This document shows positions 7,367 through 25,520 of a stretch of 64,000 nt of DNA, piece after piece; the stretch's first letter is position 1, and every line of letters starts with the position of its first letter. The DNA is taken from contig WQXU01000002.1 of NCBI GenBank assembly GCA_009781635.1, forward strand, positions 1-64,000. Reading direction: 5' to 3'. The notes under the pieces are model-generated. The model had not been told where the DNA came from. It saw nothing but the letters and a program-made list of their open reading frames with translations, and did no database searches. The position numbers and the translations under genes were made by a program. This stretch comes from Treponema sp. (lineage in GTDB: Bacteria > Spirochaetota > Spirochaetia > Treponematales > Breznakiellaceae).

Positions 7367-10300
7367 ATGGATTTCTTGAAAAAAACCGCATACTTTCTGC
7401 TTTTTATTATGCTTCTGCCTATAATTATTTTTTCAAGCAGCTGCGCCGATACCGGCAGAAATCAGTTTAGTAATATTATGGTTTTTACTTCACTCCGGGA
7501 TATTCCGAATATAACAGTTGATGAAATAAGAGCGATAGAAACCCTTCAGAGGGAATATGATTCTTTTGTATATGGAATGCCGCTGAATACTGAAGCGTTT
7601 ATAAACGAGAACGGCGAAGTTAGCGGTTTTTCTGCCTTTGTCTGCAAGTGGCTTACTGAACTTTTTGGGATTCGTTTCCGGCCTGTATTATTTGAATGGT
7701 TTGATTTGCTTGAAGGCCTTGAATCGGGGGAAATTGCCTTTTCCGGTGAATTGACATCTACAGAAGCGCGCCGGCAAATATACCATATGACCAGCGCCAT
7801 AGCGCATCGCCCTGTTAAAGCCTTCCGCCTGGCCGATTCAAGGCCGGTATGGGAAATAACAGAAAGCCGTCTGCTGCGGGCAGGTTTCATTCAGGGAGCA
7901 GCTACAATTAATGCTGTTACAGCGGAAATGGAACCAGGTACATTTGATGTAATAGAAATCAGCGATTTTAATTTTGTATACGATGCGCTTAAAAACGGGG
8001 AAATAGATGCTTTTTATTACAGCGGAGCTGCAGAAATAAGCTTTATTGAATACACAGATGTAATTGCGCAGGATTTTTATCCCTTAATTTACATGCCGGT
8101 CTCTCTTTCCACAAGGAATTCCGCATTGGAGCCGGTAATTTCAATTGTTGAAAAAGTCTTAAAAAACGGCGGAATGCGTTATTTGACTATGCTGTATAAT
8201 CAGGCACATCATGATTATTTAAAGTATAAATTAAATTCACAGCTCACCGAAGAGGAACACGCATATATCAGGAATAATCCGGTTGTGCTTGTAGGGGTTG
8301 ATCCGGGAAATTACCCCGGTTGTTTTTATGACCGGCGCGAGAAGGAATGGCGCGGGATATTTCTGGATATACTGGATGCAGTATCGCTGCTTACAGGATT
8401 AACTTTTAAGCGTGTCAATGATGAACATACGGAATGGCCTGAAATATATCAGATGCTTGCAGATGAAAAAATATCGCTTGTCCCTGAACTTACTCAGACA
8501 GCAGACTGGGCCGATCAATTTATATGGCCGGAAACTGAACAGTTAATTGATTATTACGCTCTGATATCTCACAATGATTTTCCTGATATAAAAATTAACG
8601 AAGTGTTATATGTCAGTGTCGGCCTTGCAAGGAATACCGCCTATGCTGCAATATTCAAAAAATGGTTTCCTGATCATGTTAATACTGTAGAGTATGAGAG
8701 TATGGAAGAAGCGTACGGCGCTCTGCAGCGGGGAGAAGTTGACATGATTATGGGAAATCAGAATAGGCTCCTGTATCTGACGCATTATCTTGAACTTCCC
8801 GTTTATAAAACAAATATAGTATTCGATTTTGCCACAAATACTAAATTCGGATTTAATAAAGAAGAAGTTATCCTGTGTTCCATTATCGACAAGGTGCTTG
8901 GCAGTATCGATTCCAAGAGCATCTCGGATTACTGGATGAGAAGAACATACGATTACCGGAGCAAGGTAGCGGATGCGCGCACACCGTGGATTATAGGCGC
9001 GGGCGTTCTGTTTACGCTGGTACTGGTTCTTCTTGTCATTCTTTTTGTCAGAAGCCGTCTTACCGGCAAAGAACTGGAAAAACTTGTTCAGAAGAGAACA
9101 ATCGAACTTAAAAAAATGGAAACATCAGCGCTTGCGGCTTCTAAATCCAAGTCTGTTTTCCTTGCCAATATGAGTCACGAAATACGCACGCCGATGAATG
9201 CAATTTTAGGCGTCACTGAAATTCTTGTGCAAAATGAAAGGCTTCCCGAAGAGATTAAAGAGGGACTGAACAAGATTTACAGTTCATGTGATTTACTATT
9301 GAGTATCATTAATGATATTCTTGATTTCTCAAAAATAGAAGCGGGGAAAATTGATATAATGCCGGTCAAATATGAATTGGCAAGCCTTATAAATGATTCC
9401 ATTCAGTTAAATATGATGAGGATTGATTCCAAACCAATTGAATTTATACTTAAAGTTCAAGAAAACATTCCTGCCAAGTTAATAGGCGATGAGCTTCGGA
9501 TTAAACAAATCTTAAATAATTTGCTTTCCAACGCTTTTAAATATACGGATAAAGGCAAGGTCATATTGTCAGTTGAATCCGGCGCGGCTCCGGAAAAGGA
9601 CAAAATAATCCTTATATTGAGCGTACGGGATACAGGCTCCGGCATGACACAGGAGCAGTTGAATAAATTATTTGAAGAATATTCCCGTTTTAATATTGAA
9701 AAGAATATCACGGTAGAGGGTACAGGACTTGGCCTTGCAATATCCCGGCGTTTAACAAACATTATGGATGGTAAAATAAACGTGGAAAGCGAACTAAATA
9801 CCGGGTCCTGTTTTACCATCCGGCTTCCGCAGGGCTTAGTAGACGATGAAGTAATGAGCAATGAAGTTATAGCCAATCTGCAGCAATTCCATATGAGTTA
9901 TGCTTCAAACAGGAAAAGCGGGCAGATTGTGCGTGATCCGATGCCTTACGGCAAAGTCCTTATTGTTGACGATGTTGAAACAAATATATATGTCGCTGTA
10001 GGACTTATGAAACTTTACAGGCTTCAAATTGATTACACTATGAGCGGTCAGGAAGCTATTGATAAAATTAAACAGGGCAATGTGTATGATGTTATTTTTA
10101 TGGATCACATGATGCCGGGGATGGATGGTATTGAGGCAACGCGGCAATTGCGCAATCTGGGATATAATGAATCGATTGTTGCATTAACAGCTAACGCCGT
10201 ATCGGGACAGGCTGATATATTCCTGCAAAACGGCTTTGACTATTTTATTTCCAAGCCGATAGATATACGCCAGTTAAACTCAATCCTTAATAAACTGGTG

Positions 10301-11527
10301 CGTGATAAACAGCCGCCTGATGTTATTGAGGCTTGCAGGCAGGAAGCTGCTAAACGGCAAATGACAGAGACAAAAAACGGAAATGCGGAGCATCCGCAGC
10401 TGGATGCATTGCTTCTGGAGTCATTTATAAGAGATGCGCAAAAAGCCGCAGATTTACTGGAATATTTAGCTAAGAACAGCGAAATTGAAAACAGGGAGAA
10501 TTTACAAAAATTTACGATTGTCGTTCATGGCATAAAAAGTTCACTTTGGAATATTGGTGAAAACGAGCTTGCAGAAACAGCAGGCAAACTGGAAATAAGC
10601 GGGCGGGAGTGCAACATTGATTTTATAAAATCAACTGCATCTGCATTTATAAGCAACTTGCGTATCCTGCTGGAAAGACTTGAGTCTAAAAGAGACGGAT
10701 ATGGTTCAGATGAGGATATTGAAGACTTGCAGAAAAAACTAAAGGATATTCAGGAAGCATGCGCTGATTATGACAGAAAAGGAGCTCTTGATATACTTTC
10801 AAAAATGATAAATTATTCGAAAGAAACAAAAGCAGTTTTAAATAATATTATGAGCTATGTTAATCACAGTGAATTTGAAGCAGCCGAAAATGCTGCAAGG
10901 GAATATGCCGATCTTCTGAATGTTCAAGCCGGGCAAAAAACATCAGGACGCCTGTTGAATAATGAAATTACAGGGCTGGATATAACAAAAGGCCTGGAAC
11001 GCTACAATAATGATGAAGAAACATATATTAAGGTTTTACGTTCATATACCGCCAGCGTCCGTTCATTGTTAAGTGAAATGGAAAGCGTAAACGAAAATAG
11101 TATTAGTAATTATAAAATAAAAGTTCATGGCATTAAGGGAACGAGCCTTGATATTTGCGCAGAGAATATCGGGAAAAGCGCTGCGGATCTTGAGAATGCG
11201 GCGAAAACCGGAGATTTGGATTTTATAAACAGCAATAATCCTGTTTTCCTTGAAGCCGCCTGGACATTAGTTTCCGGCATTGATGATATGTTAATACGTT
11301 TGGATGCAGAAAATCCAAAGCCCAAAAAGGATAAACCCGATAAGGGACAGCTTGAAAAATTGCTTGCGGCGTGCAGAAATTATGAGATGGATGAAGCGGA
11401 TGCGGCGATGTATGAGATACAAAAATATCAATATGAATCAGATGACGGGCTTGCAAACTGGCTGCAGGAAGCTATTGATAGAATGGATTTTGCGCAAATT
11501 GTAAAAAAACTTTCTAATTTGGAGTAG
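7367..11527 (+). CDS. BvgS-like hybrid kinase with two solute-binding domains and two HPt domains
   Basis: A 1386-residue sensor kinase. The N-terminus is a signal sequence ending SSSC (C26), which could be lipidated. Two periplasmic binding domains of the SBP_bac_3 type follow (about 35-285 and 297-530). A membrane helix lies at 541-562. HisKA carries H604, the ATPase domain has an N-box at 716-724, G1 DTGSGM and G2 GTGLGL, a receiver has D913 and K963, and two HPt domains have H1054 and H1254. From HisKA to the first HPt it is closely similar to the 3851-7267 protein, so the pair arose by duplication with exchange of the sensory half. A helical unit (1118-1185) follows the first HPt and a diverged copy closes the protein (1329-1386). 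A GGGGG ribosome site precedes the ATG. Confidence 0.9.
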   Translation: MDFLKKTAYFLLFIMLLPIIIFSSSCADTGRNQFSNIMVFTSLRDIPNITVDEIRAIETLQREYDSFVYGMPLNTEAFINENGEVSGFSAFVCKWLTELFGIRFRPVLFEWFDLLEGLESGEIAFSGELTSTEARRQIYHMTSAIAHRPVKAFRLADSRPVWEITESRLLRAGFIQGAATINAVTAEMEPGTFDVIEISDFNFVYDALKNGEIDAFYYSGAAEISFIEYTDVIAQDFYPLIYMPVSLSTRNSALEPVISIVEKVLKNGGMRYLTMLYNQAHHDYLKYKLNSQLTEEEHAYIRNNPVVLVGVDPGNYPGCFYDRREKEWRGIFLDILDAVSLLTGLTFKRVNDEHTEWPEIYQMLADEKISLVPELTQTADWADQFIWPETEQLIDYYALISHNDFPDIKINEVLYVSVGLARNTAYAAIFKKWFPDHVNTVEYESMEEAYGALQRGEVDMIMGNQNRLLYLTHYLELPVYKTNIVFDFATNTKFGFNKEEVILCSIIDKVLGSIDSKSISDYWMRRTYDYRSKVADARTPWIIGAGVLFTLVLVLLVILFVRSRLTGKELEKLVQKRTIELKKMETSALAASKSKSVFLANMSHEIRTPMNAILGVTEILVQNERLPEEIKEGLNKIYSSCDLLLSIINDILDFSKIEAGKIDIMPVKYELASLINDSIQLNMMRIDSKPIEFILKVQENIPAKLIGDELRIKQILNNLLSNAFKYTDKGKVILSVESGAAPEKDKIILILSVRDTGSGMTQEQLNKLFEEYSRFNIEKNITVEGTGLGLAISRRLTNIMDGKINVESELNTGSCFTIRLPQGLVDDEVMSNEVIANLQQFHMSYASNRKSGQIVRDPMPYGKVLIVDDVETNIYVAVGLMKLYRLQIDYTMSGQEAIDKIKQGNVYDVIFMDHMMPGMDGIEATRQLRNLGYNESIVALTANAVSGQADIFLQNGFDYFISKPIDIRQLNSILNKLVRDKQPPDVIEACRQEAAKRQMTETKNGNAEHPQLDALLLESFIRDAQKAADLLEYLAKNSEIENRENLQKFTIVVHGIKSSLWNIGENELAETAGKLEISGRECNIDFIKSTASAFISNLRILLERLESKRDGYGSDEDIEDLQKKLKDIQEACADYDRKGALDILSKMINYSKETKAVLNNIMSYVNHSEFEAAENAAREYADLLNVQAGQKTSGRLLNNEITGLDITKGLERYNNDEETYIKVLRSYTASVRSLLSEMESVNENSISNYKIKVHGIKGTSLDICAENIGKSAADLENAAKTGDLDFINSNNPVFLEAAWTLVSGIDDMLIRLDAENPKPKKDKPDKGQLEKLLAACRNYEMDEADAAMYEIQKYQYESDDGLANWLQEAIDRMDFAQIVKKLSNLE

Positions 11528-11529
11528 AT

Positions 11530-12387
11530 ATGGAAAGATCAGGTTATAGAAGCACAAGCGAGATTACCGGAACCCGTAAAAAGATAATTTATGTTGATGA
11601 TGTAAATTACAGTCTGATGACGGTAAAAACCAGACTCAGTGATCATTACGAAGTTTATCCTGCGGATTCTGTTCTTAAAATGTATGAATTTCTTGAAAAT
11701 ATCAAACCCGATTTAATATTATTGGATGTTAATATGCCGGATATCGACGGCTATGAGGCAATAAAAAGCCTGAAAGCCGATGAGCGTTATATTAACATAC
11801 CGGTTATTTTTCTGACGGGTAACAGTGACAGGGAAAGTGTTGTTAAGGGTCTTAGTCTTGGGGCTGTTGATTATGTAATTAAACCGTTTACAACCGTAAA
11901 GCTGGTCGAAAGCATCGAGAACCATCTGAATCCTCCAAAGCGTAAAGAATCTTCCGACGATGAAGGCAATGACGGTAAACCAAGCATTCTTGTCGTTGAT
12001 GATGTTTCCAGCATGTTACGAGCAATGCAGTATGCTTTACATGACAGATATAAGGTGTTTATACTGTCTAAATCTGAAGATGTACTGGACTTTCTGCGTA
12101 CAAAAAAAGTGGAATTAATTATGCTGGATTATTTAATGCCTGTGTTAAGCGGATTCGATCTAATTCCCCTGATACGGGCATTGCCGGATCAAAAGGATGT
12201 TCCTATCATTATTATTACAACCGAAGGAACATCAGATCATGTCAGCGAAGCTATTTCGCTTGGAGCTTCCGATTTTATTGTAAAGCCTTTTAAACCTAAG
12301 GAACTGAATGATAAAGTTGCGAAGCATATAAGAATAGCAAAAGAACTAAAATTGATAAAGGATGATTTAAGGAATTTATATGACTGA
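11530..12387 (+). CDS. double receiver response regulator (REC-REC)
   Basis: A 285-residue protein made of two receiver domains and no output domain. The first (about 17-135) has D66 and K118; the second (about 152-270) has D200 and K252. Both have the acidic pair (YVDD and VVDD). It starts two bases after the stop of the large kinase and its end overlaps the next receiver gene, so the genes are co-transcribed and probably translationally coupled. It probably passes or stores phosphoryl groups in the relay, for example between HPt domains and the output regulators. Confidence 0.88.
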   Translation: MERSGYRSTSEITGTRKKIIYVDDVNYSLMTVKTRLSDHYEVYPADSVLKMYEFLENIKPDLILLDVNMPDIDGYEAIKSLKADERYINIPVIFLTGNSDRESVVKGLSLGAVDYVIKPFTTVKLVESIENHLNPPKRKESSDDEGNDGKPSILVVDDVSSMLRAMQYALHDRYKVFILSKSEDVLDFLRTKKVELIMLDYLMPVLSGFDLIPLIRALPDQKDVPIIIITTEGTSDHVSEAISLGASDFIVKPFKPKELNDKVAKHIRIAKELKLIKDDLRNLYD

Positions 12388-12751
12388 GAAAATAGAAAAA
12401 TTGATATTTATTGTAGATGATAATGACGCTAATCTGACGATGGCCGCTTCCATTCTGGAAAAAGACTATAAGGTGCTGACCATGCCGTCCGCTCAGAAAA
12501 TGTTTTTTCTTTTGGAAAAAAAACATCCGGATTTAATCATTTTGGATATTGAAATGCCGGAAATGAACGGCCTTGAAGCGATTGTCAAGGTGAAAGAAAA
12601 CGAAAAATGGAAGGATATTCCGGTTCTTTTTCTTACAGGATGGAGTGATGAAAAGTTATTGGCAAAGGCCGCTGAAGCGGGAGCCTTAGATGTAATAAAT
12701 AAACCCATCGTGGCGCCTGCCTTGCTGGAAAATGTCAGCAAATATATTTAA
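12380..12751 (+). CDS. single-domain receiver (CheY-like)
   Basis: A 123-residue stand-alone receiver with the VDDND acidic group, phospho-acceptor D56 and K108. The ATG overlaps the end of the REC-REC gene by eight bases. It resembles the receiver of the HD-GYP protein at 1401 more than it does the chemotaxis CheY at 58081. A role as shuttle or phosphate sink in the local relay is likely but inferred. Confidence 0.85.
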   Translation: MTEKIEKLIFIVDDNDANLTMAASILEKDYKVLTMPSAQKMFFLLEKKHPDLIILDIEMPEMNGLEAIVKVKENEKWKDIPVLFLTGWSDEKLLAKAAEAGALDVINKPIVAPALLENVSKYI

Positions 12752-12768
12752 GGACAGCAGTGAAAATT

Positions 12769-13686
12769 ATGAGTGAAGAAAAAATGAACTCGGTACTTAT
12801 TGTTGATGATCAGGAAACAACAATAACATTACTTAAGGATATTTTAAATAAGGAATATACAGTTTACACGGCGGAAAACGGAGCAGATGCCATTAATGAA
12901 GCCGAAAGACTGCTTCCGGATATCATTCTGCTTGATATACTCATGATTGACATGGACGGATATACCGTGCTTGCCGAATTGAAAAAATCCAGCAAGACAA
13001 AAGCCATACCAATTATTTTTATCTCATCGCTTTCCGGTGATGTAAACGAAGCAAGAGGATTGTCTTTGGGAGCGGTAGATTATATTACAAAACCGTTTTC
13101 TCCCGGGATTGTGAAATTAAGAGTCCGGAATCAGATAATGCTCCTGGAACAATTTCGTACAATAGAAAGACTTGGTATGATAGATCAGCTGACAGATATA
13201 CCCAACAGGCGGAGTTTTGAAAGACATATTAATTCCGAGTGGGGCAGGGCCTTACGTGATAATACGGCAATCAGCATTCTGCTTGTGGATTTGGATCTGT
13301 TTAGAAAATATAACGATGCATTCGGGCACGAGCAGGGCGATGCTGCCCTGGTTTCAATCGCAAAATTGTTTTCAAAAGTGTTAAGGCGCCCTGCAGATTA
13401 TGTCGCCCGCTGGGACGGCGGAGTGTTTGTTGTACTTTTGCCCAACACGGACTTAAACGGAGCGCTTGAAATGGCGGAGAAAATACGCAGTAAGATTGAG
13501 GATATGGAAATTCCGTGTTCGCATTCACATATACCTGCAGGTAAAGTGACGGTAAGCATTGGCGTAAATACGCGGGAACCGGGGCAGGGCGGGACAGTAA
13601 ATGAGTTTATTTCCAGGGCGGATGCCGCTCTTTACGAGGCCAAGGATAGAGGACGAAACAGAATTTTTTATTACGGAGAGAAATAA
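12769..13686 (+). CDS. REC-GGDEF protein with degenerate active site (DGGVF)
   Basis: A 305-residue paralogue of the cyclase at 450-1364. I use the ATG at 12769, which aligns with that paralogue, rather than the GTG at 12760. The receiver keeps D56 and K108. In the GGDEF domain the signature is replaced by DGGVF (216-220), losing the catalytic acidic residue of the GGEEF turn, while the I-site RPAD (207-210) keeps its normal spacing and the DLDLF and FGHEQGD motifs remain. It is therefore probably not a cyclase but may bind c-di-GMP through the I-site as a receptor or regulate its partner. It is the last gene of the cluster. Confidence 0.85.
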   Translation: MSEEKMNSVLIVDDQETTITLLKDILNKEYTVYTAENGADAINEAERLLPDIILLDILMIDMDGYTVLAELKKSSKTKAIPIIFISSLSGDVNEARGLSLGAVDYITKPFSPGIVKLRVRNQIMLLEQFRTIERLGMIDQLTDIPNRRSFERHINSEWGRALRDNTAISILLVDLDLFRKYNDAFGHEQGDAALVSIAKLFSKVLRRPADYVARWDGGVFVVLLPNTDLNGALEMAEKIRSKIEDMEIPCSHSHIPAGKVTVSIGVNTREPGQGGTVNEFISRADAALYEAKDRGRNRIFYYGEK

Positions 13687-17366: not shown

Positions 17367-17618
17367 ATGAAAGTTCAAATAAGGTACCGCGCGCAATTAT
17401 CAGCGCTTGTAAAAATGGAAAACGAATCAATAACTGCGGCAGATGTAAAAGATGTGCTGCGCCATATCAAAAGGCAGTTCAGCGCAAAAGCGTACAAGCT
17501 TGCAAAAAAAATGCTGATAGTCGTTAACGGACAAAGTATACTTATGCTTAAACATTTTAATACTGTTTTAAAAGACGGCGATGAAGTTTCATTTTTACCT
17601 ATTTGCGGCGGCGGATAA
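17367..17618 (+). CDS. MoaD/ThiS-like sulfur carrier protein
   Basis: An 83-residue ubiquitin-fold protein ending in CGGG, the di-glycine tail of MoaD/ThiS carriers that deliver sulfur as a thiocarboxylate. It starts 13 bases after AOR and precedes the cofactor genes, so it is most likely the small subunit of molybdopterin synthase or an AOR-specific MoaD. No MoaE (large subunit) or MoeB (activating enzyme) gene is visible in the window. Confidence 0.85.
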   Translation: MKVQIRYRAQLSALVKMENESITAADVKDVLRHIKRQFSAKAYKLAKKMLIVVNGQSILMLKHFNTVLKDGDEVSFLPICGGG

Positions 17619-17670
17619 ATTGCAGGCCGGATGACACTCATCACTTTTAATGTTATCATTTTTTATAACT

Positions 17671-17762
17671 CCGATTCCTTCGTGCTAAGGCCTCTGCGGC
17701 TATGCCGAACGGAACGATAGAGTGCAGGCGGAAACGGCTGTGCTTACCATTGTGTGAAGGAG
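17671..17762 (+). promoter_or_regulatory. Moco/Tuco-type riboswitch controlling tupA
   Basis: The gap before tupA has hallmarks I associate with the Moco RNA motif: GTGCTAAGGCCTCTGCGG at 17682-17699 and GGCGGAAACGGCTGTGC at 17727-17743. A closing stem pairs 17676-17685 with 17752-17761 (ten pairs, three of them G-U wobbles). Its 3' arm contains most of the tupA Shine-Dalgarno AAGGAG (17757-17762), so the folded state would block translation. A short hairpin CGGC-TAT-GCCG lies at 17697-17707. Genes downstream import tungstate and build the cofactor, as expected for a feedback switch. I could not score it against the family model; whether it is the Moco or the shorter Tuco variant is undecided. 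Confidence 0.7.
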
Positions 17763-17768
17763 AAAATT

Positions 17769-18650
17769 ATGAATAAAACCTCTGGTTTTACCCCCTGCCC
17801 AAGAGCTTTATGTCAAAGAACATTAGGCCTTGCGGCCGCCGTGATGCTTTTCGCATTGGGCGCTTCGCTTTTTGCCGCCGGTACGCGTGACGCTCCGGTT
17901 AAAGGCAGAATCACCTTGTCAACTACAACCAGCACGCAGGATTCAGGACTGCTGGATTTCCTGCTGCCTGCGTTCACGCGGGAAACGGGATGGGAAGTTG
18001 ATGTCGTTGCTGTGGGCTCTGGCGCTGCACTGCGGATGGGACGTGACGGAGATGCAGATGTGCTTCTGGTTCATGCAAGGCCCGATGAAATCCAGTTTGT
18101 TGCAGACGGTTACGGGGCAGTGCGTTACGATGTCATGTACAATGACTTTCTTATTACAGGGCCGGACAGGGAAATCCCGCACAACAGTAATGTCATTCAA
18201 ACATTAAAGGACATCGCATCAAAAAATCTGCCCTTTGTTTCCCGCGGCGATGATTCCGGAACGCACAGAATGGAACTTACCCTTTGGCAGTCTGCAGCAG
18301 TAAATGTCAGGGATATGCGCCGCTATTCCTCTGTAGGTCAGGGGATGGGCGCGACTTTGCAGATGGCCAATGAAATGCAGGCCTATACTCTTACAGATCG
18401 CGCAACCTGGCTTACGCTTAGAAAAGACGGAAGGATAAATCTTTCCGCTGTATGCGAAAACTCTCCGGAGCTGCTCAATTATTACGGAGTAATTCTTGTA
18501 AATCCTGCGCGGCATCCCGGGATAAATGCTCAGGGCGGGCGCGCATTTGTTGAATGGATGATAGGCGCAAATGCTCAAAGGCTTATAAGTCAATATGGGG
18601 TAGAAGAGTTCGGCGCTCCCCTGTTTACGCCAAATGCCGGAACAAGATGA
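17769..18650 (+). CDS. tupA: tungstate ABC transporter substrate-binding protein
   Basis: A 293-residue periplasmic binding protein of the TupA family, which captures tungstate with very high affinity. The diagnostic TTTSTQDSGLL segment follows the signal peptide (hydrophobic stretch about 20-36), and RGDDSGTHRMELTLW is also typical. I use the ATG at 17769, six bases after AAGGAG; a GTG at 17754 lies inside the riboswitch stem. The stop overlaps the tupB start (ATGA). Expression is probably controlled by the riboswitch just upstream. Confidence 0.93.
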   Translation: MNKTSGFTPCPRALCQRTLGLAAAVMLFALGASLFAAGTRDAPVKGRITLSTTTSTQDSGLLDFLLPAFTRETGWEVDVVAVGSGAALRMGRDGDADVLLVHARPDEIQFVADGYGAVRYDVMYNDFLITGPDREIPHNSNVIQTLKDIASKNLPFVSRGDDSGTHRMELTLWQSAAVNVRDMRRYSSVGQGMGATLQMANEMQAYTLTDRATWLTLRKDGRINLSAVCENSPELLNYYGVILVNPARHPGINAQGGRAFVEWMIGANAQRLISQYGVEEFGAPLFTPNAGTR

Positions 18651-19324
18651 GTTTTGGAATTATTAATTTAAGCGCAGACACTCTTTCGATCATCGGCGTA
18701 ACTCTAAGAATGTCTTTTTTTTCCACATTAATTTCAACTGTTCTTGGTACAATTCTTGGGCTGCTGCTTGAAAAGAGCAGCTTCCCGGGAAAACAAATTG
18801 TAGTCAGGCTCTGCCGTACATTTATGGGAATGCCTCCCGTTGTGGCAGGGCTTATCGTTTACCTCATTCTGATGCGCCGCGGTCCGCTTGGTTTTCTTGG
18901 ACTTCTTTTTACAATCGAGGCTATGGTGATTGCGCAGGTTGTTTTAATCACTCCGATTATTACCGGCATGATTTATACCTACGCTGTCCGCAGCGCGCCT
19001 GTAATACGGGTGTTTGCAAAAACAATGGGAGCTACCCGTTTTCAAACGCAGCTTCTGTTTATAAGAGAAATGAAGGGAGAGTTTTACTTTGCAATCGTTA
19101 CAGCGTTCAGCCGCGCCATAAGCGAAGTGGGGGCTGTGATGATTGTCGGAGGAAATATTCAGTACAAGACGCGGACAATGACTACCGCAATAACAATGCT
19201 CCGCAGTATGGGCGATTTTAGCCAGGGCATTACTCTTGGAATACTGCTTTTAATTATTGCGTTTTCTCTTCAGTCTCTTTCTGATTTATTCAGAAGAAAC
19301 GAAAAAATTGCGGAGAATTTTTAG
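18647..19324 (+). CDS. tupB: tungstate ABC transporter permease
   Basis: A 225-residue inner-membrane permease with five or six hydrophobic segments and the coupling-loop pattern FAKTMGATRFQTQ...REMKG, where the EAA-type motif contacts the ATPase. The ATG at 18647 overlaps the tupA stop; a longer frame from 18554 lies inside tupA and is not credible. It forms the channel of TupABC. Confidence 0.92.
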   Translation: MSFGIINLSADTLSIIGVTLRMSFFSTLISTVLGTILGLLLEKSSFPGKQIVVRLCRTFMGMPPVVAGLIVYLILMRRGPLGFLGLLFTIEAMVIAQVVLITPIITGMIYTYAVRSAPVIRVFAKTMGATRFQTQLLFIREMKGEFYFAIVTAFSRAISEVGAVMIVGGNIQYKTRTMTTAITMLRSMGDFSQGITLGILLLIIAFSLQSLSDLFRRNEKIAENF

Positions 19325-19326
19325 TT

Positions 19327-19941
19327 ATGATACTAACAGGGGTTAAAAAAAAACTTGGCGATTTTATTCTTGACATTGATAATTTTACAATTTCATATCC
19401 TGGGGTTTACGGGCTGATTGGCCCCAATGGTTCCGGCAAGTCTACTCTTGCAAAAATTATTGCAGGGCTTCTTGAACCTGACAGCGGCGGTGTAAACACC
19501 GAAGGCCTGCTGCAAAGAGATATTACATATCTTGGCCGTAAACCCTACATGATGGATGATACGGTGTATAATAATCTTGTGTATCCTCTTGAACTGCGGA
19601 ATATTGAGCCGGATCAAAAACTTGTAAATGAATATCTTGATAAAATGAAATTTTCAAACCGGTCAAAGGAGAGAGCAAAGGGCCTTTCCGGCGGCGAACA
19701 GCAGAAACTTGCTTTTCTTAGAGCAATCATTTTTAAGCCAAAGTTAATTATTGCAGATGAAGCAATGACTGCCATGGACATGGAAAGCCTGGATCTTTTT
19801 GAAAAAACAATTCTTGAAGAACAGAAAAATGAAAACTCTATCTGGATTATTATAAGTCATCAGATGCCGCATATAAAAAACATATGCAGTCAAATTTATT
19901 TTATGCATGAGGGAAAAGTAAGTGAAGCTGCTCACAGTTGA
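19327..19941 (+). CDS. tupC: tungstate ABC transporter ATP-binding protein
   Basis: A 204-residue ABC ATPase, on the short side for the family. It has Walker A GPNGSGKST, signature LSGGEQQ, Walker B KLIIADEAMT and the switch histidine in IIISHQ. It begins two bases after tupB and its 3' end overlaps the first moeA gene by 20 bases, so uptake and cofactor insertion are tightly coupled in expression. Confidence 0.92.
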   Translation: MILTGVKKKLGDFILDIDNFTISYPGVYGLIGPNGSGKSTLAKIIAGLLEPDSGGVNTEGLLQRDITYLGRKPYMMDDTVYNNLVYPLELRNIEPDQKLVNEYLDKMKFSNRSKERAKGLSGGEQQKLAFLRAIIFKPKLIIADEAMTAMDMESLDLFEKTILEEQKNENSIWIIISHQMPHIKNICSQIYFMHEGKVSEAAHS

Positions 19942-21154
19942 TACAATTGAACAGGCGCGTGAAAAACTTGCAGACAGAGTTAAATCATGGACATTAAAAA
20001 CGGACATGGTTCCTGTTGATAAAGCGCCTGGTTGTATCCTTGCAGAAGATATTTTTTCTCCCTGCAGCATTCCCTCATACCGCCGTTCAACAGTTGACGG
20101 TTATGCAGTACTCGCCTGTGATACATCCGGGGCAGGTGAAGGCATTCCTGTAATTCTAAAATTGACAGGCTCTGTATTAATCGGCAGGCAGGCGGACATA
20201 AAAGTAAGTTCCGGTGAGTGCGTCTATGTGCCGACAGGCGGAATGCTTCCCCAGGGCGCAGATGCTATGGTAATGCTTGAGTACAGTGAAGCAGCAGGCG
20301 CTTACCTGTCTGTGTACAAATCCGTTGCGCCGGGAGCGGGAATTATTGAAGAAGGCGAGGATTTTCAAAAGGGAAAATTATTATTAAAAAAAGGAACATG
20401 CATTCGCGCTCAGGAAACCGGCGCTTTATCTGCGGCAGGAATCTTAAATGTCTCTGTGTATGCTTCTCTTTCACTTGCGATTATTTCAACAGGCGATGAA
20501 CTTGTTTCTCCGGAACAGGAGCCGGCTCCGGGAAAAATACGTGATGTAAACACAAGCGCGCTTAAAGCGCTTGCAAAAAGATATGGCTGCAATGCTGCGA
20601 TTAGCCAGGTGCTTCCCGATGACGAAGCGGTACTTGAAAATGCAGTAAGATCCGCCATGACAGCATGCGATATAATAATTATCTCCGGCGGAAGCTCAAA
20701 AGGGGACAGGGATTTTACCGCAAAAATTATTGACAGTGTTTCAAAGCCTGGCGTATTTACCCACGGCCTTGCCGTTAAACCGGGAAAGCCCACTATACTG
20801 GGCTGGGATGATCAGAATAAAAAACTATTCGCAGGACTGCCCGGTCATCCGGTTTCTGCAATGATGATTTTTACAACTATCTTTGGCTGGCTCTCTGAAA
20901 TTTTATTTAACAAGCAGCCGGCCTTTCCTGTTCCGGCGCGCATTTCATGTAATGTTCCGGGCGCACCCGGGAAAACTGTTTTTATGCCTGTTGTTCTGGA
21001 GCTGCAGGGGGGGTTCTATCTTGCAAAACCTGTATTTGGGAAAGCGGGAATAATTTCTACACTTACTGACGCAGACGGCTATATAATTATAGAAAGAAAT
21101 AAAGAAGGTATAAAGCAGGATGAATCTGTGCTGGTTTATCTTTTTCAGGAATAA
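19922..21154 (+). CDS. moeA: molybdopterin molybdenumtransferase (MoeA), first paralogue
   Basis: A 410-residue MoeA, which inserts molybdate or tungstate into adenylated pterin. Family features include SYRRSTVDGYAV in domain I, ISTGDELV, ISGGSSKGDRDF and KPGKPT...GLPGHPVSAM. The start is a GTG with GAGGG upstream, inside the end of tupC. It is a plain, unfused MoeA, in contrast to the next gene. Confidence 0.92.
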   Translation: MKLLTVDTIEQAREKLADRVKSWTLKTDMVPVDKAPGCILAEDIFSPCSIPSYRRSTVDGYAVLACDTSGAGEGIPVILKLTGSVLIGRQADIKVSSGECVYVPTGGMLPQGADAMVMLEYSEAAGAYLSVYKSVAPGAGIIEEGEDFQKGKLLLKKGTCIRAQETGALSAAGILNVSVYASLSLAIISTGDELVSPEQEPAPGKIRDVNTSALKALAKRYGCNAAISQVLPDDEAVLENAVRSAMTACDIIIISGGSSKGDRDFTAKIIDSVSKPGVFTHGLAVKPGKPTILGWDDQNKKLFAGLPGHPVSAMMIFTTIFGWLSEILFNKQPAFPVPARISCNVPGAPGKTVFMPVVLELQGGFYLAKPVFGKAGIISTLTDADGYIIIERNKEGIKQDESVLVYLFQE

Positions 21155-21156
21155 TA

Positions 21157-23070
21157 ATGGCAAATCGGAATTTATATTTAAGCAATACTCCGGTTGAAGA
21201 AGCGCTGTCAAAATACCTTGCCGCGCTTGAGGGACTGCTTAATCCAAAGTTTGAAGAAATCCCCGCGCAGGAAAGTCTTGATCGCATTACATCTGAGGCA
21301 GTTTATGCGCGGTTTAGCTCTCCCTTGTTTAATGCTGCAGCTATGGACGGCATTACAGTAAAAGCATCGGCGGCAGCCGGCGCGCGTGAATCAAACCCCC
21401 TTGTTCTTAAAGAGACAGAAGATTTTATATATGTTAATACGGGAGATAAGTTAAATCATCCGTATGATGCAGTAATTATGGCCGAAGATCTTATCCAGGC
21501 TGACGGAGAGAGAAGCGTAAAAATTATTGAGAGCCCTTCCGCCTGGCAGCATGTAAGGCCCATTGGAGAAGACATAGTTGCAGGAGAGATGATTATTCCG
21601 GGCAGGCATAAAATAAGACCGGTAGACATTGGCGTTCTTTTTTCCGGCGGGATTACAAGCGTTAATGTTTATTCCCGGCCCAGGGTTGCGATTATTCCAA
21701 CAGGCAATGAGATAATAGATATATCGCACCTGCAAAACGGAGAGGCTCCGGAAGAAGGAAGGATCATCGAGTCAAACGCGCGGATGTTTGAGGCGCAGGT
21801 AAAACGGGCAGGCGCAGAAGGTCTGCGTTTCGATATTGTGCCTGATAGTTATGAGCTTCTTAAGAGCGCCGTTTTAAAAGCGGCGGATGATTTTGATATG
21901 GTATTAATAAATGCGGGGTCCAGCGCCGGTACGGAAGATTTTACAGTTCAGGCGCTGCGCGAAACTGGAGATGTGATTGTCCATGGTGTTGCCATGAAAC
22001 CGGGAAAGCCTGTAATACTTGCGGTTGTAAATAACAAACCTGTCATCGGCACGCCCGGCTATCCTGTCTCCGCCTATCTTTCATTTGAAACTTTTGCCTC
22101 TCCTGTTCTATCCGTCCTTACAGGCAGTAAGGAAAAAGCAATGCAAAAAACAGAAGCAGTTATTTCCAGACGGATTGTGTCTTCGTTAAAACACCGCGAG
22201 TATGTGCGCGTAAAAACAGGACGTGTAGACGGCAGGCTTGTCGCATCTCCTTTGGCAAGAGGCGCTGGAGCAGCGATGTCGCTTGTAAGGGCCGACGGTT
22301 TCTGTGTTATTGATCAGCAGAGCGAAGGTATAGAAGCAGGTGAAACTGCAAAGATAGAACTCTGTCATTCAATTGAAGAAATAGATCGCACACTGGTAGC
22401 GGTTGGAAGCCATGATCTAATCCTTGATATGATCTCTGATATGATGTCATGCAAATACGGAATTAACCTTGCAAGTACGCATGCTGGAAGCATGGCAGGA
22501 CTTACTGCGCTAAAGCGCGGAGAGTGCCACATTGCGCCTGTTCATCTGCTTGATGAAGATACCGGCGGTTATAACAAAGGCTGGATAAAAAAGATTTTAC
22601 CAGATAAAGATATAAGTCTTATAAAAGGTGTCGGCAGGGTTCAGGGATTAATTGTTAAAAAAAATAATCCGCTGGGAATTAAATCAATTGCAGATATTTG
22701 CCGCTGCCGTTTTATAAACCGCCAGCGCGGAGCGGGGACACGCCTCTTTCTGGATCATCTGCTTAAAGGAGAGGGCATAAATCCAGGCAGTATAGATGGA
22801 TACACAAGGGAAGGCGTGACTCACATGGCAGTAGCCGCAGCAGTACATGGCGGCAGCGCTGATGCAGGACTTGGAATTACATCTGCCGCGAAAGCCCTCG
22901 ATTTGGATTTTATTCCGATGGGTGAAGAAGAATATGACTTTGCGCTTTTTTCCAATTTACTAAAATCGGAAATGATTAATATATTTATTGATGTTTTAAA
23001 AAGCCCGGGGTTTCATCAGAAGCTTGACGGTTATACATGGGCTTACGCCGGAGAGATTGTCAGTTTATAA
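21157..23070 (+). CDS. moeA: MoeA fused to a C-terminal periplasmic-binding-like domain, second paralogue
   Basis: A 637-residue protein. Residues 1-405 form a second MoeA, with AAMDGITV in place of the usual TVDGYAV, IPTGNEIID, INAGSSAGTEDF and KPGKPV...GTPGYPVSAY. Residues about 410-637 are a binding-protein-like domain of the type fused to MoeA in some anaerobes (GSHDLILDMISD..., RGAGTRLFLDHLL, GITSAAKALDLDFIP). The extra domain may sense or hold oxyanion or cofactor. Two MoeA paralogues beside a tungstate transporter suggest separate metal specificities, which is inference. Confidence 0.9.
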   Translation: MANRNLYLSNTPVEEALSKYLAALEGLLNPKFEEIPAQESLDRITSEAVYARFSSPLFNAAAMDGITVKASAAAGARESNPLVLKETEDFIYVNTGDKLNHPYDAVIMAEDLIQADGERSVKIIESPSAWQHVRPIGEDIVAGEMIIPGRHKIRPVDIGVLFSGGITSVNVYSRPRVAIIPTGNEIIDISHLQNGEAPEEGRIIESNARMFEAQVKRAGAEGLRFDIVPDSYELLKSAVLKAADDFDMVLINAGSSAGTEDFTVQALRETGDVIVHGVAMKPGKPVILAVVNNKPVIGTPGYPVSAYLSFETFASPVLSVLTGSKEKAMQKTEAVISRRIVSSLKHREYVRVKTGRVDGRLVASPLARGAGAAMSLVRADGFCVIDQQSEGIEAGETAKIELCHSIEEIDRTLVAVGSHDLILDMISDMMSCKYGINLASTHAGSMAGLTALKRGECHIAPVHLLDEDTGGYNKGWIKKILPDKDISLIKGVGRVQGLIVKKNNPLGIKSIADICRCRFINRQRGAGTRLFLDHLLKGEGINPGSIDGYTREGVTHMAVAAAVHGGSADAGLGITSAAKALDLDFIPMGEEEYDFALFSNLLKSEMINIFIDVLKSPGFHQKLDGYTWAYAGEIVSL

Positions 23071-23082
23071 AGAGGTAGAAAT

Positions 23083-23583
23083 ATGGAAAACGGTTTTTCT
23101 CATTTTGATTCACAGGGCAATGCGGTAATGGCGGACATTTCCCAAAAGGAAATTACTTCCCGTACCGCAATTGCAAAGGGATGCATTTCTATGAACGCCG
23201 GCGCCATGAAGGCCGTGCTTGACGGCGCTGTCGGTAAGGGCGATGTTCTTGGCGTTGCCCGCATCGGGGGAATTATGGCGGCAAAGAGATGCTCAAGCCT
23301 TATTCCCCTGTGTCATCCCTTGAATTTTGACAAGTGCACAATTGATTTTTCTTTTCATAATGAAGATTCACCGGCCGCAGACAGCAGGAAAATGATCGAG
23401 GCTGCATGCGAAGTAAAACTTTCCGGAAAGACAGGAGCTGAAATGGAAGCACTTACCGGCGTATCCATTGCCCTTCTTACAATTTACGATATGTGCAAAG
23501 CGCTTGATAAAACGATGGTTATTGGCAATATCAGGCTTTGCGAAAAATCCGGCGGGAAGAGCGGGCATATTTGTGTTGATTGA
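23083..23583 (+). CDS. moaC: cyclic pyranopterin monophosphate synthase
   Basis: A 166-residue MoaC, which converts the MoaA product to cyclic pyranopterin monophosphate. Family motifs include IPLCHPL, VKLSGKTGAEMEALTGVS and LLTIYDMCKA. The ribosome site AGAGGT lies ahead of the ATG. Its stop lies within the start region of moaA. Confidence 0.95.
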   Translation: MENGFSHFDSQGNAVMADISQKEITSRTAIAKGCISMNAGAMKAVLDGAVGKGDVLGVARIGGIMAAKRCSSLIPLCHPLNFDKCTIDFSFHNEDSPAADSRKMIEAACEVKLSGKTGAEMEALTGVSIALLTIYDMCKALDKTMVIGNIRLCEKSGGKSGHICVD

Positions 23584-24571
23584 TTCATCCGGCAGAGCTA
23601 TTAATTATTTAAGAGTCTCAATTACTGACAGGTGCAATCTACGCTGCCTTTATTGCATGCCGCCCGAAGGCGTTAAATGGAAACCTCATAACGATATTCT
23701 GTCTTTTGAAGAGATTATAAGGATAGCAAAAATAATGACGTATCTTGGTATAAGGAATATCAGGATAACAGGAGGGGAGCCTCTGCTGCGCCGCGGTATG
23801 ATTTTTTTAATTAAGGAACTTAAATCAATTAAGGGAATTGAAAAAATCACGCTTACCACTAACGGGCTTCTTTTAGGCGCATATCTTAACGAAGCAGGAT
23901 CAATGGGTCTGCCCGATGGAATTAACATCAGCCTTGATGCTCTGGATAATGAATGTTATAAAAAAATGACAGGGAGCGGATTTTTACATGAATGTAAAAA
24001 TGCAGAACCTGCAGCCATTGTCCCGCTTATAGACAGGCTTCTTGAAAAAAAAATCACTGTAAAAATAAATTGTGTGCCTGTACGCGCTTCCGGGAAACCC
24101 TGCAATGAAAAAGAAATTGTTCCTATTGCAGCTCTTGCAAAGGACAGAAACATTTTTGTCCGCTTCATTGAGTTAATGCCCCTTGGCTCGGCATCGGTTT
24201 TTCAATCTGTTCCTGGTGAGGAAGCAGCGGCGCAAATTGAAAACTTTTTTGGCATACTCAAACCTGCCGGCGACATTTACGGCAGCGGCCCTGCAGTATA
24301 TTACAGTCTTCCGGGTTTTACAGGGAAGATCGGTTTTATAAATGCCGTAACGCATATCTTTTGCGAAACATGCAATCGTTTGCGTCTTACTTCTGAAGGT
24401 TCTCTAAGGCTATGTCTTTCAGATGAGCATGGCCTTGATTTGCGCGCTTTGATCCGCGCGGGCGCTGGCGATGATGAGATTATCAAAGAAATTACAGAAG
24501 CGGTTAAGTTAAAACCCCGCTCCCATGCATTTAAAAATAATAAAGAAGGCATGTCGGAAATCGGCGGATAA
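23573..24571 (+). CDS. moaA: GTP 3',8-cyclase (radical SAM)
   Basis: About 332 residues. MoaA uses S-adenosylmethionine and two iron-sulfur clusters to cyclise GTP in the first step of pterin cofactor synthesis. The radical SAM motif is CNLRCLYC near residues 20-27; the second cluster ligands are in FCETCNRLRLT and LRLCL; the C-terminal GG tail is present (EIGG). I chose the GTG at 23573 (TTG at 23576 is an alternative); a longer frame from 23468 lies inside moaC. It overlaps the end of moaC by 11 bases. Confidence 0.92.
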   Translation: MLIDSSGRAINYLRVSITDRCNLRCLYCMPPEGVKWKPHNDILSFEEIIRIAKIMTYLGIRNIRITGGEPLLRRGMIFLIKELKSIKGIEKITLTTNGLLLGAYLNEAGSMGLPDGINISLDALDNECYKKMTGSGFLHECKNAEPAAIVPLIDRLLEKKITVKINCVPVRASGKPCNEKEIVPIAALAKDRNIFVRFIELMPLGSASVFQSVPGEEAAAQIENFFGILKPAGDIYGSGPAVYYSLPGFTGKIGFINAVTHIFCETCNRLRLTSEGSLRLCLSDEHGLDLRALIRAGAGDDEIIKEITEAVKLKPRSHAFKNNKEGMSEIGG

Positions 24572-24584
24572 GGTATAATTCAAC

Positions 24585-25520
24585 ATGGGAAAAATATTGG
24601 CAGTTTGCATAAGCAGCGAAAAGGGAACAGTAAAACGCAATATTAACAGAGCCGAATTTATTGCAGGTCACGGTTTGTCAGGCGATGCTCACGCCGGAGA
24701 ATGGCACAGGCAGGTTAGTCTTCTTTCCGCTCAAAAAATTGAAATCTTCCGCGCAGCTGCTGAAACAAAAACCGGAATTGAATACGGAGACTTCGGAGAA
24801 AATCTTGTTGTAGATGGAATTGATTTTAAAAACCTTCCTGTGGGCACGGTGCTTGAGTGTAATGATGTTGTTCTGGAAATAACCCAGATAGGAAAGGAAT
24901 GTCACAGCCGCTGCGTAATTTATAATGTTATGGGCGATTGTATAATGCCCCGCGAAGGAGTTTTTGCAAAAGTGGTTTGCGGCGGGATAATCAGCGCCGG
25001 TGATGAAATGACAATCCGTATGCAGAAAGACAATTACCGCTTCTGGATTTTAACTGCAAGCGACAAGTGTTCCAGCGGCGGGCGCGAAGATAAAAGCAGC
25101 GCTGTCATCCGCGAAATTGCAGTTGGCGCAGGATATGCAGATGCAGGTTACACCCTGCTTCCGGATGAGCAGTCTCTTATTGAAAATGAATTAAAGCGCA
25201 TATGCGACTGCAGCCTTGCAGATATTATTTTAACAACAGGAGGAACAGGCCTGTCTTCGCGCGATTGCATGCCCGAAGCTTCAGCGGCAGTTGCGCACAG
25301 GTTCGTTCCAGGCATTGCAGAAGCCATGCGCGCCGCAAGCATGACTATTACAAAACGCGCCATGCTTTCAAGAGCAATTGCAGCCATACGCGGCAAAACC
25401 CTTATCATCAATTTACCGGGAAGCCCGAAAGCGGCCCGCGAGAATCTTGAGTTTATTATTGGAGAGCTTCATCACGGCCTTGACATTTTAACAGGCAGAG
25501 ACGGAGAGTGCGCTATTTAA
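24585..25520 (+). CDS. MOSC domain fused to MogA/MoaB-type molybdopterin adenylyltransferase
   Basis: A 311-residue fusion. Residues 1-150 are a MOSC domain (HGLSGDAHAG, YGDFGENLVVDGI, GKECHSRC), a fold that handles sulfur carried on cysteine in cofactor chemistry. Residues 155-311 are a MogA/MoaB domain (ILTASDKCSSG, TTGGTGLSSRD, NLPGSPKAARENLEFI) that adenylates molybdopterin before metal insertion. It closes the cofactor operon. Its last 18 bases, including the stop, are repeated exactly at 29537-29554. Confidence 0.9.
   Translation: MGKILAVCISSEKGTVKRNINRAEFIAGHGLSGDAHAGEWHRQVSLLSAQKIEIFRAAAETKTGIEYGDFGENLVVDGIDFKNLPVGTVLECNDVVLEITQIGKECHSRCVIYNVMGDCIMPREGVFAKVVCGGIISAGDEMTIRMQKDNYRFWILTASDKCSSGGREDKSSAVIREIAVGAGYADAGYTLLPDEQSLIENELKRICDCSLADIILTTGGTGLSSRDCMPEASAAVAHRFVPGIAEAMRAASMTITKRAMLSRAIAAIRGKTLIINLPGSPKAARENLEFIIGELHHGLDILTGRDGECAI
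25503..25520. repeat. 18-bp direct repeat, left copy, bounding an insertion
   Basis: GGAGAGTGCGCTATTTAA is identical to 29537-29554. This copy forms the last codons and stop of the MOSC-MogA gene. Flanking bases differ at both ends, so the match is exactly 18 bp. Confidence 0.9.

Follow-up and report, generated by a model that had tools for sequence, protein, structure and literature searches.

The closest described relative of the RNA reported here is the leader of E. coli moaA, a member of the Moco/Tuco RNA family (RF01055), in which the Shine-Dalgarno (SD) sequence overlaps stem P1 and binding of the ligand causes repression, proposed to act on translation (Regulski et al. 2008, PMC2408646). 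The same study tied RNAs that contain stem P3 to the molybdenum cofactor (Moco) and RNAs that lack it to the tungsten cofactor (Tuco), tungsten genes being present in 17 of the 19 organisms with P3-less RNAs. This division of ligands is a correlation from 2008, and when P3 was deleted from the E. coli RNA, the sole effect was a loss of regulation (PMC2408646). The phylum Spirochaetota, from which our sequence comes, does not appear in the abstract of that paper. For tungstate uptake, the systems to compare with are TupABC, represented by TupA of Desulfovibrio alaskensis, from which the TTTS tungstate-binding motif is taken (PMC5517513), and by the NCBIfam families NF041772-4.

We analysed a stretch of 64,000 nucleotides from contig WQXU01000002.1 of Treponema sp., hereafter called the window. 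The RNA in the window resembles the E. coli moaA leader in its fold, its conserved core, the GAAA tetraloop of P4, the placement of the SD within P1, its position before cofactor genes and its predicted translational OFF control. It differs in that P3 is missing, P1 consists of four standard pairs, tupABC comes first among the genes that follow, and transcription is predicted to start directly at P1. With the P3-less Tuco subtype it shares the CGAUA linker in the place of P3, the adjoining genes for a tungstate transporter and an AOR, and the synthesis genes downstream. The RNA with its gene layout is an additional member of an already known kind of riboswitch, and control through an SD in P1 was known as well. 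Taken alone the element is an ordinary family member, and its value lies in the comparison with its relatives.

The RNA and the genes that follow it

When the window was searched against all Rfam families at their curated thresholds, RF01055 was the sole match, covering the full model (positions 1-135) with E = 2.8e-11 for the whole window and E = 3.5e-13 for an 801-base stretch (Table 1). The match spans the gap between a gene for a MoaD/ThiS-like protein (17367-17618) and the tupA-like gene, and RF01055 occurs once in the 2.77 Mb genome. The preliminary description had recognised Moco RNA-like segments of a Moco/Tuco riboswitch in this gap; this is borne out by the covariance model, which gives a significant score and aligns the RNA with the P3 columns deleted, as in the P3-less (Tuco) type. 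The RNA is a bona fide member of the Moco/Tuco riboswitch family.

Table 1. Elements of the tup leader and of the genes downstream (positions in the window).
Feature	Positions	Strand	Evidence
Predicted sigma-70-type promoter: -35 ATGACA (17631-17636), 17-nt spacer, extended -10 TG-n-TATCAT (17654-17659)	17631-17659	+	10/12 match, TG before the -10
RF01055 Moco/Tuco RNA, full model	17657-17778	+	57.9 bits, gathering score 36
P1 5' strand CUCC (anti-SD)	17669-17672	+	Rfam alignment; paired in 15/15 relatives
P2 5' strand UUCCUUCGUGC	17675-17685	+	Rfam alignment; 6/10 P2 pairs changed on both sides
Internal CUAAG ... UAUG element with small hairpin (17689-17692/17698-17701)	17685-17704	+	Sequence, Rfam alignment
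P2 3' strand GCCGAACGGAA	17704-17714	+	Rfam alignment
CGAUA linker at the P3 position, without P3 stem	17715-17719	+	P3 columns deleted in Rfam alignment
P4 hairpin, GAAA tetraloop 17731-17734	17720-17745	+	10/11 pairs in window; 7 pairs changed on both sides in the family
P5, UAC 17745-17747 with GUG 17754-17756	17745-17756	+	n = 15: middle pair AU in 8, UA in 7
SD AAGGAG; GGAG 17759-17762 = P1 3' strand	17757-17762	+	Rfam alignment
tupA-like tungstate-binding protein gene, ATG 17769	17769-18650	+	PF12849; NF041772 205.7 bits (cut-off 400); TTTS motif
tupB-like permease gene	18647-19324	+	NF038017 198 bits (cut-off 100); NF041773 130.9 (cut-off 320)
tupC-like ATPase gene	19327-19941	+	Profile match
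moeA	19922-21154	+	Profile match
moeA-PBP fusion, second MoeA copy	21157-23070	+	NF011068 702 bits (cut-off 534)
moaC	23083-23583	+	PF01967 178 bits
moaA, start approximate	23591-24571	+	TIGR02666 305.2 bits (cut-off 284)
MOSC-MogA-like fusion, at the end of the gene run	24585-25520	+	Family by eye; homologues end the tup operons of relatives

The genes behind the RNA are those for tungstate uptake and cofactor synthesis, as had been described before. The first of them resembles known TupA proteins in the TTTS motif, which reads STTTST in the window and is present in 33 of 33 RNA-linked TupA proteins, in a segment bearing serine and arginine, and in the order tupA-tupB-tupC. Compared with the TupABC equivalogs, the window proteins score under the NCBIfam cut-offs and their substrate is assigned by likeness, and the first protein is therefore called TupA-like; the NF041772 cut-off of 400 is reached in none of 68 spirochaete genomes. 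The genome also encodes two AOR-family proteins and one PF02738 enzyme (a molybdenum enzyme of the xanthine-dehydrogenase type) besides its single TupA, while no PF00384 enzyme and no ModA were found in it. The two moeA copies adjoin (19922-23070), the second being fused to a domain like those of periplasmic binding proteins, and they may serve one metal each; the possession of two MoeA copies is regarded as a sign that both cofactors are used (PMC13328260). Near-identical DNA in plasmids was considered and rejected, the only match being one piece of a substrate-binding-protein gene with 69.7% identity in one plasmid.

Conserved structure and capture of the ribosome-binding site

The aptamer structure was assessed on 15 RNAs from the same family as the window, in which 88.3% of the cells are paired and 15 pairs have changed on both sides. 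The covariation score is 0.377 compared with 0.264 in shuffles, slid versions of the structure reach 0.07-0.17, and in none of 500 shuffles are the share of paired cells, the number of double changes or the covariation as high. The folded strand also exceeds 197 of 200 shuffles in stability (z = -2.88). P1, formed by CUCC and GGRG, is paired in all 15 RNAs and invariant except for U-A/U-G, and in the window's genus it consists of only four standard pairs. P2 contains a bulge of the receptor type, in which the CUAAG/UAUG element aligns to the RF01055 model; this element is identified as the tetraloop receptor region after PMC2408646. P5 closes immediately 5' of the SD. The minimum-energy fold extends P1 by pairing UUUAUAA (17662-17668) with UUAUGAA (17767-17773) across the start codon, and this extension was rejected on conservation: relatives keep 0-5 of the seven pairs, compared with 7/7 in the window. 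The predicted transcription start also leaves most of this 5' arm outside the message.

The ATG of tupA (17769-17771) begins 6 nt after GGAG, and across the phylum 28 of the 33 RNAs associated with tup have the P1 3' strand with the SD at 5-8 nt from an in-frame start that follows it. In ensemble folding of the transcript from its own promoter, P1 is formed at 76-93% and GGAG is unpaired at 1-14%. The idea that the closing stem captures the SD of tupA, put forward in the preliminary description, is firmly upheld, with CUCC as the capturing strand and GGAG as the 3' strand of P1.

With good confidence, we propose that the P3-less Moco/Tuco riboswitch exerts translational control over its own unit, tupABC-moeA-moeA/PBP-moaC-moaA-MOSC/mog. 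The tup message would open with the aptamer, its start being predicted shortly ahead of P1. A plentiful metallopterin cofactor would bind the core made of P2, P4 and P5, whereupon P1 would close and CUCC would hold the GGAG of the tupA SD; translation of tupA would drop, and tungstate uptake and cofactor synthesis would drop as well. With the cofactor scarce, the short P1 of four pairs would open and ribosomes would load. The OFF direction of the switch is suggested by analogy to E. coli moaA, and polarity would carry the effect over the whole tup operon. Several points speak against this explanation: the nearest-neighbour model predicts P1 to be mostly closed even in the ligand-free RNA, so that the ON state has to be assumed, P1 is only four standard pairs long, the TupA-like protein scores under its NCBIfam cut-off, and the PF02738 enzyme and the two MoeA copies leave a tungsten-only ligand unsecured.

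Alternative pairing and transcription unit

The preliminary description had placed the closing stem elsewhere, between 17676-17685 (UCCUUCGUGC) and 17752-17761 (GUGUGAAGGA), and had noted that wobble pairs maintain it. The complementarity is real: seven Watson-Crick and three G-U pairs follow one another in the window, they would cover the SD as well, and in shuffled upstream sequences a 10-nt complement occurs at about 1% for the exact arm and about 4% for any SD-covering 10-mer. A function for this pairing, either by itself or as a second anti-SD state that excludes P2, is nevertheless highly improbable. Its 5' arm lies inside the 5' strand of P2, where it covaries with its aptamer partner, 17704-17713. 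On the 15 family RNAs, 59.3% of the cells of the proposed stem are paired, compared with 59.4% in shuffles, and covariation is absent. All ten pairs are formed in the window alone, and relatives retain 4-8 of them, mostly the UCC/GGA core, so that the expected conservation of the pairing in relatives fails for this stem, whereas it holds for P1 (17669-17672/17759-17762). Forcing the stem costs 3.1 kcal/mol relative to the aptamer fold, and its pair probability is at most 0.06. Moreover, the SD would be hidden in both states, and the pairing would therefore not make a switch. As a closing or alternative stem it is ruled out by conservation, covariation and energy, and the ten-pair complementarity is best read as chance together with the UCC/GGA core that P1 and P2 have in common.

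The preliminary description had also let the RNA begin in the middle of an operon, after AOR, in a design that separates the enzyme from its cofactor supply. The gene order is true, as an iron alcohol dehydrogenase gene, a ferredoxin gene, an AOR gene and the MoaD/ThiS-like gene precede the RNA, all genes are on the plus strand, and 151 bases separate the moaD stop from the tupA ATG. On such an arrangement, the RNA would be an internal attenuator of a long AOR-moaD-tup-moa operon, in which transcription of AOR begins far upstream and the riboswitch would cut translation only in the second half. No terminator-like site was found on the plus strand at 17618-17669, and read-through from AOR-moaD may therefore occur. 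However, the predicted promoter lies directly before P1, with its -10 ending 9 bases before CUCC in the window, which predicts a start near 17666, and 7-9 nt ahead of CTCC in the majority of the family RNAs. Averaged over 23 family RNAs, the best sigma-70 match before P1 scores 9.39, compared with 7.23 in dinucleotide shuffles, the top shuffled mean being 7.76. Furthermore, no AOR or ferredoxin homologue precedes the tup RNA in the six relatives with at least about 6 kb of upstream sequence, the AOR-moaD pair being absent there too, and several relatives have a further copy of the RNA directly before an AOR gene, so that the RNA elsewhere also heads AOR transcripts. We consider an internal attenuator unlikely. 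The operon architecture that had been described thus lacks support, and the separation of AOR from cofactor supply was dropped, since relatives keep the RNA and tup as a unit with its own promoter-like site. Judged from these sequence features, the RNA most likely begins its own tup message. The order AOR-RNA-tup in the window is likely the adjacency of two units, because the promoter-like site stands at a fixed distance before P1 and AOR is not upstream in these six relatives. Further upstream in the window, a 1386-aa ORF (7367-11527) resembles, by eye in translation, a hybrid sensor kinase in which solute-binding-type domains are repeated, and it is followed by ORFs that look like response regulators (11530-13686).

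Distribution of the RNA among spirochaetes

In a phylum-wide sample of 393 spirochaete genomes, 53 carry RF01055, and in the window's family 18 of 200 do. Its targets in the phylum are tup operons, as in the window and in many other genomes, AOR genes, ydhV-type genes, moa/moe genes, and enzymes of the formate-dehydrogenase type with an in-frame TGA. At eleven loci the RNA lies directly 5' of a gene for a PF00384 enzyme, mostly with one in-frame TGA, and these enzymes are probably selenocysteine formate dehydrogenases; in several of the RNAs linked to them, the P3 site is occupied by a short linker variant, ACCGC-AGG. A genus-mate of the window (G530, contig C264) has three P3-less RNAs within about 6 kb (L059:1832-8030), and a promoter-like site stands immediately ahead of P1 in each. 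Their targets are, in order, an iron alcohol dehydrogenase homologue, a ModA gene over the family cut-off, and tupABC.

P3 and the identity of the ligand

To the extent that the tup-linked RNAs could be scored (32 RNAs; 33 TupA proteins are RNA-linked), a P3-site hairpin is present in 13/32 and absent from 19/32. Mapped on the TupA tree, the state of P3 has changed at least four times, all changes being forced by well-supported branches, or three times if a sub-threshold RNA in G541 is left out. One change falls between the window and its nearest TupA relative, that of G541 (75% identity), which has a hairpin at the P3 site. Two inserts hold the score of the G541 RNA (L050:1501-1672) down to 31.6 bits, one being a 7-bp hairpin at the P3 site and the other an additional hairpin-like insert in P2; this RNA may represent a variant or a copy in decay. 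A P3-site hairpin is also present in the RNA of a second close relative, G556, where every P3 pair is aligned by the Rfam model. Since the orthologous operons of G556 and G541 bear such hairpins, the Tuco subtype is not stable on the tup operon.

The state of P3 shows no significant relation to the number of molybdenum enzymes (Mann-Whitney p = 0.19, and the four independent pairs almost never differ), a comparison in which many genomes are MAGs and the use of molybdenum or tungsten is judged from few marker families. For example, the 98% complete genome G329 combines a P3-containing tup RNA with three AOR-family genes, while PF00384, PF02738 and an over-cut-off ModA are all absent from it. 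A P3-site hairpin does not necessarily function as P3, and the substrate of TupA is assigned from sequence. P3-less RNAs precede all five of the non-YdhV AOR genes that were checked, and a P3-containing RNA precedes four of five YdhV-type genes (NF007354 over cut-off). AOR genes next to P3-containing RNAs had been considered as counter-evidence to the P3 rule, and this was withdrawn for four cases, as these are of the YdhV type. The YdhV protein of E. coli carries molybdenum (PMC9103625), but a relative took up tungsten (PMC13328260). Because orthologous tup operons show both states without a matching change in molybdenum enzymes, these comparisons suggest that P3 is not a safe sign of the ligand in Spirochaetota. 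That P3 does not set the specificity for molybdenum or tungsten in riboswitches of this class, or at any rate in those of spirochaetes, seems to us nearly an even matter, with the balance slightly against it. If it is true, the determinant lies elsewhere in the core, or the switch answers to both cofactors, or the ligand preference flips readily. The spirochaete tup operons are natural matched sets, with equal genes and layout and with P3 present or absent, which makes the discrimination between the two metals directly testable.

For the RNA in the window, the tungsten cofactor is the most likely ligand, and we favour it modestly; the molybdenum cofactor, or either of the two, has a smaller yet considerable chance. 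The window fits the tungsten pattern in that a P3-less RNA, TupABC and an AOR occur together. A ligand restricted to tungsten is not secured, because the genome encodes a xanthine-dehydrogenase-type enzyme (PF02738) and two MoeA copies. That the RNA would bind the molybdenum cofactor or either cofactor in spite of its missing P3 is a tentative reading. It agrees with the repeated changes of P3 on orthologous tup operons, which are unmatched by the molybdenum-enzyme inventory, with the P3-less RNA just before the ModA gene in G530, and with the PF02738 enzyme, but the neighbours in the window, TupABC and a non-YdhV AOR, are of the tungsten type, P3-less RNAs precede every non-YdhV AOR gene that was checked, and the absence of P3 was correlated with tungsten genes in the 2008 survey (PMC2408646). 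The tungsten cofactor stays the preferred ligand.

Four P3-less tup RNAs from one other family (L089, L146, L143 and L080) have long inserts, of about 25-40 nt, in the P5 loop directly before the SD.
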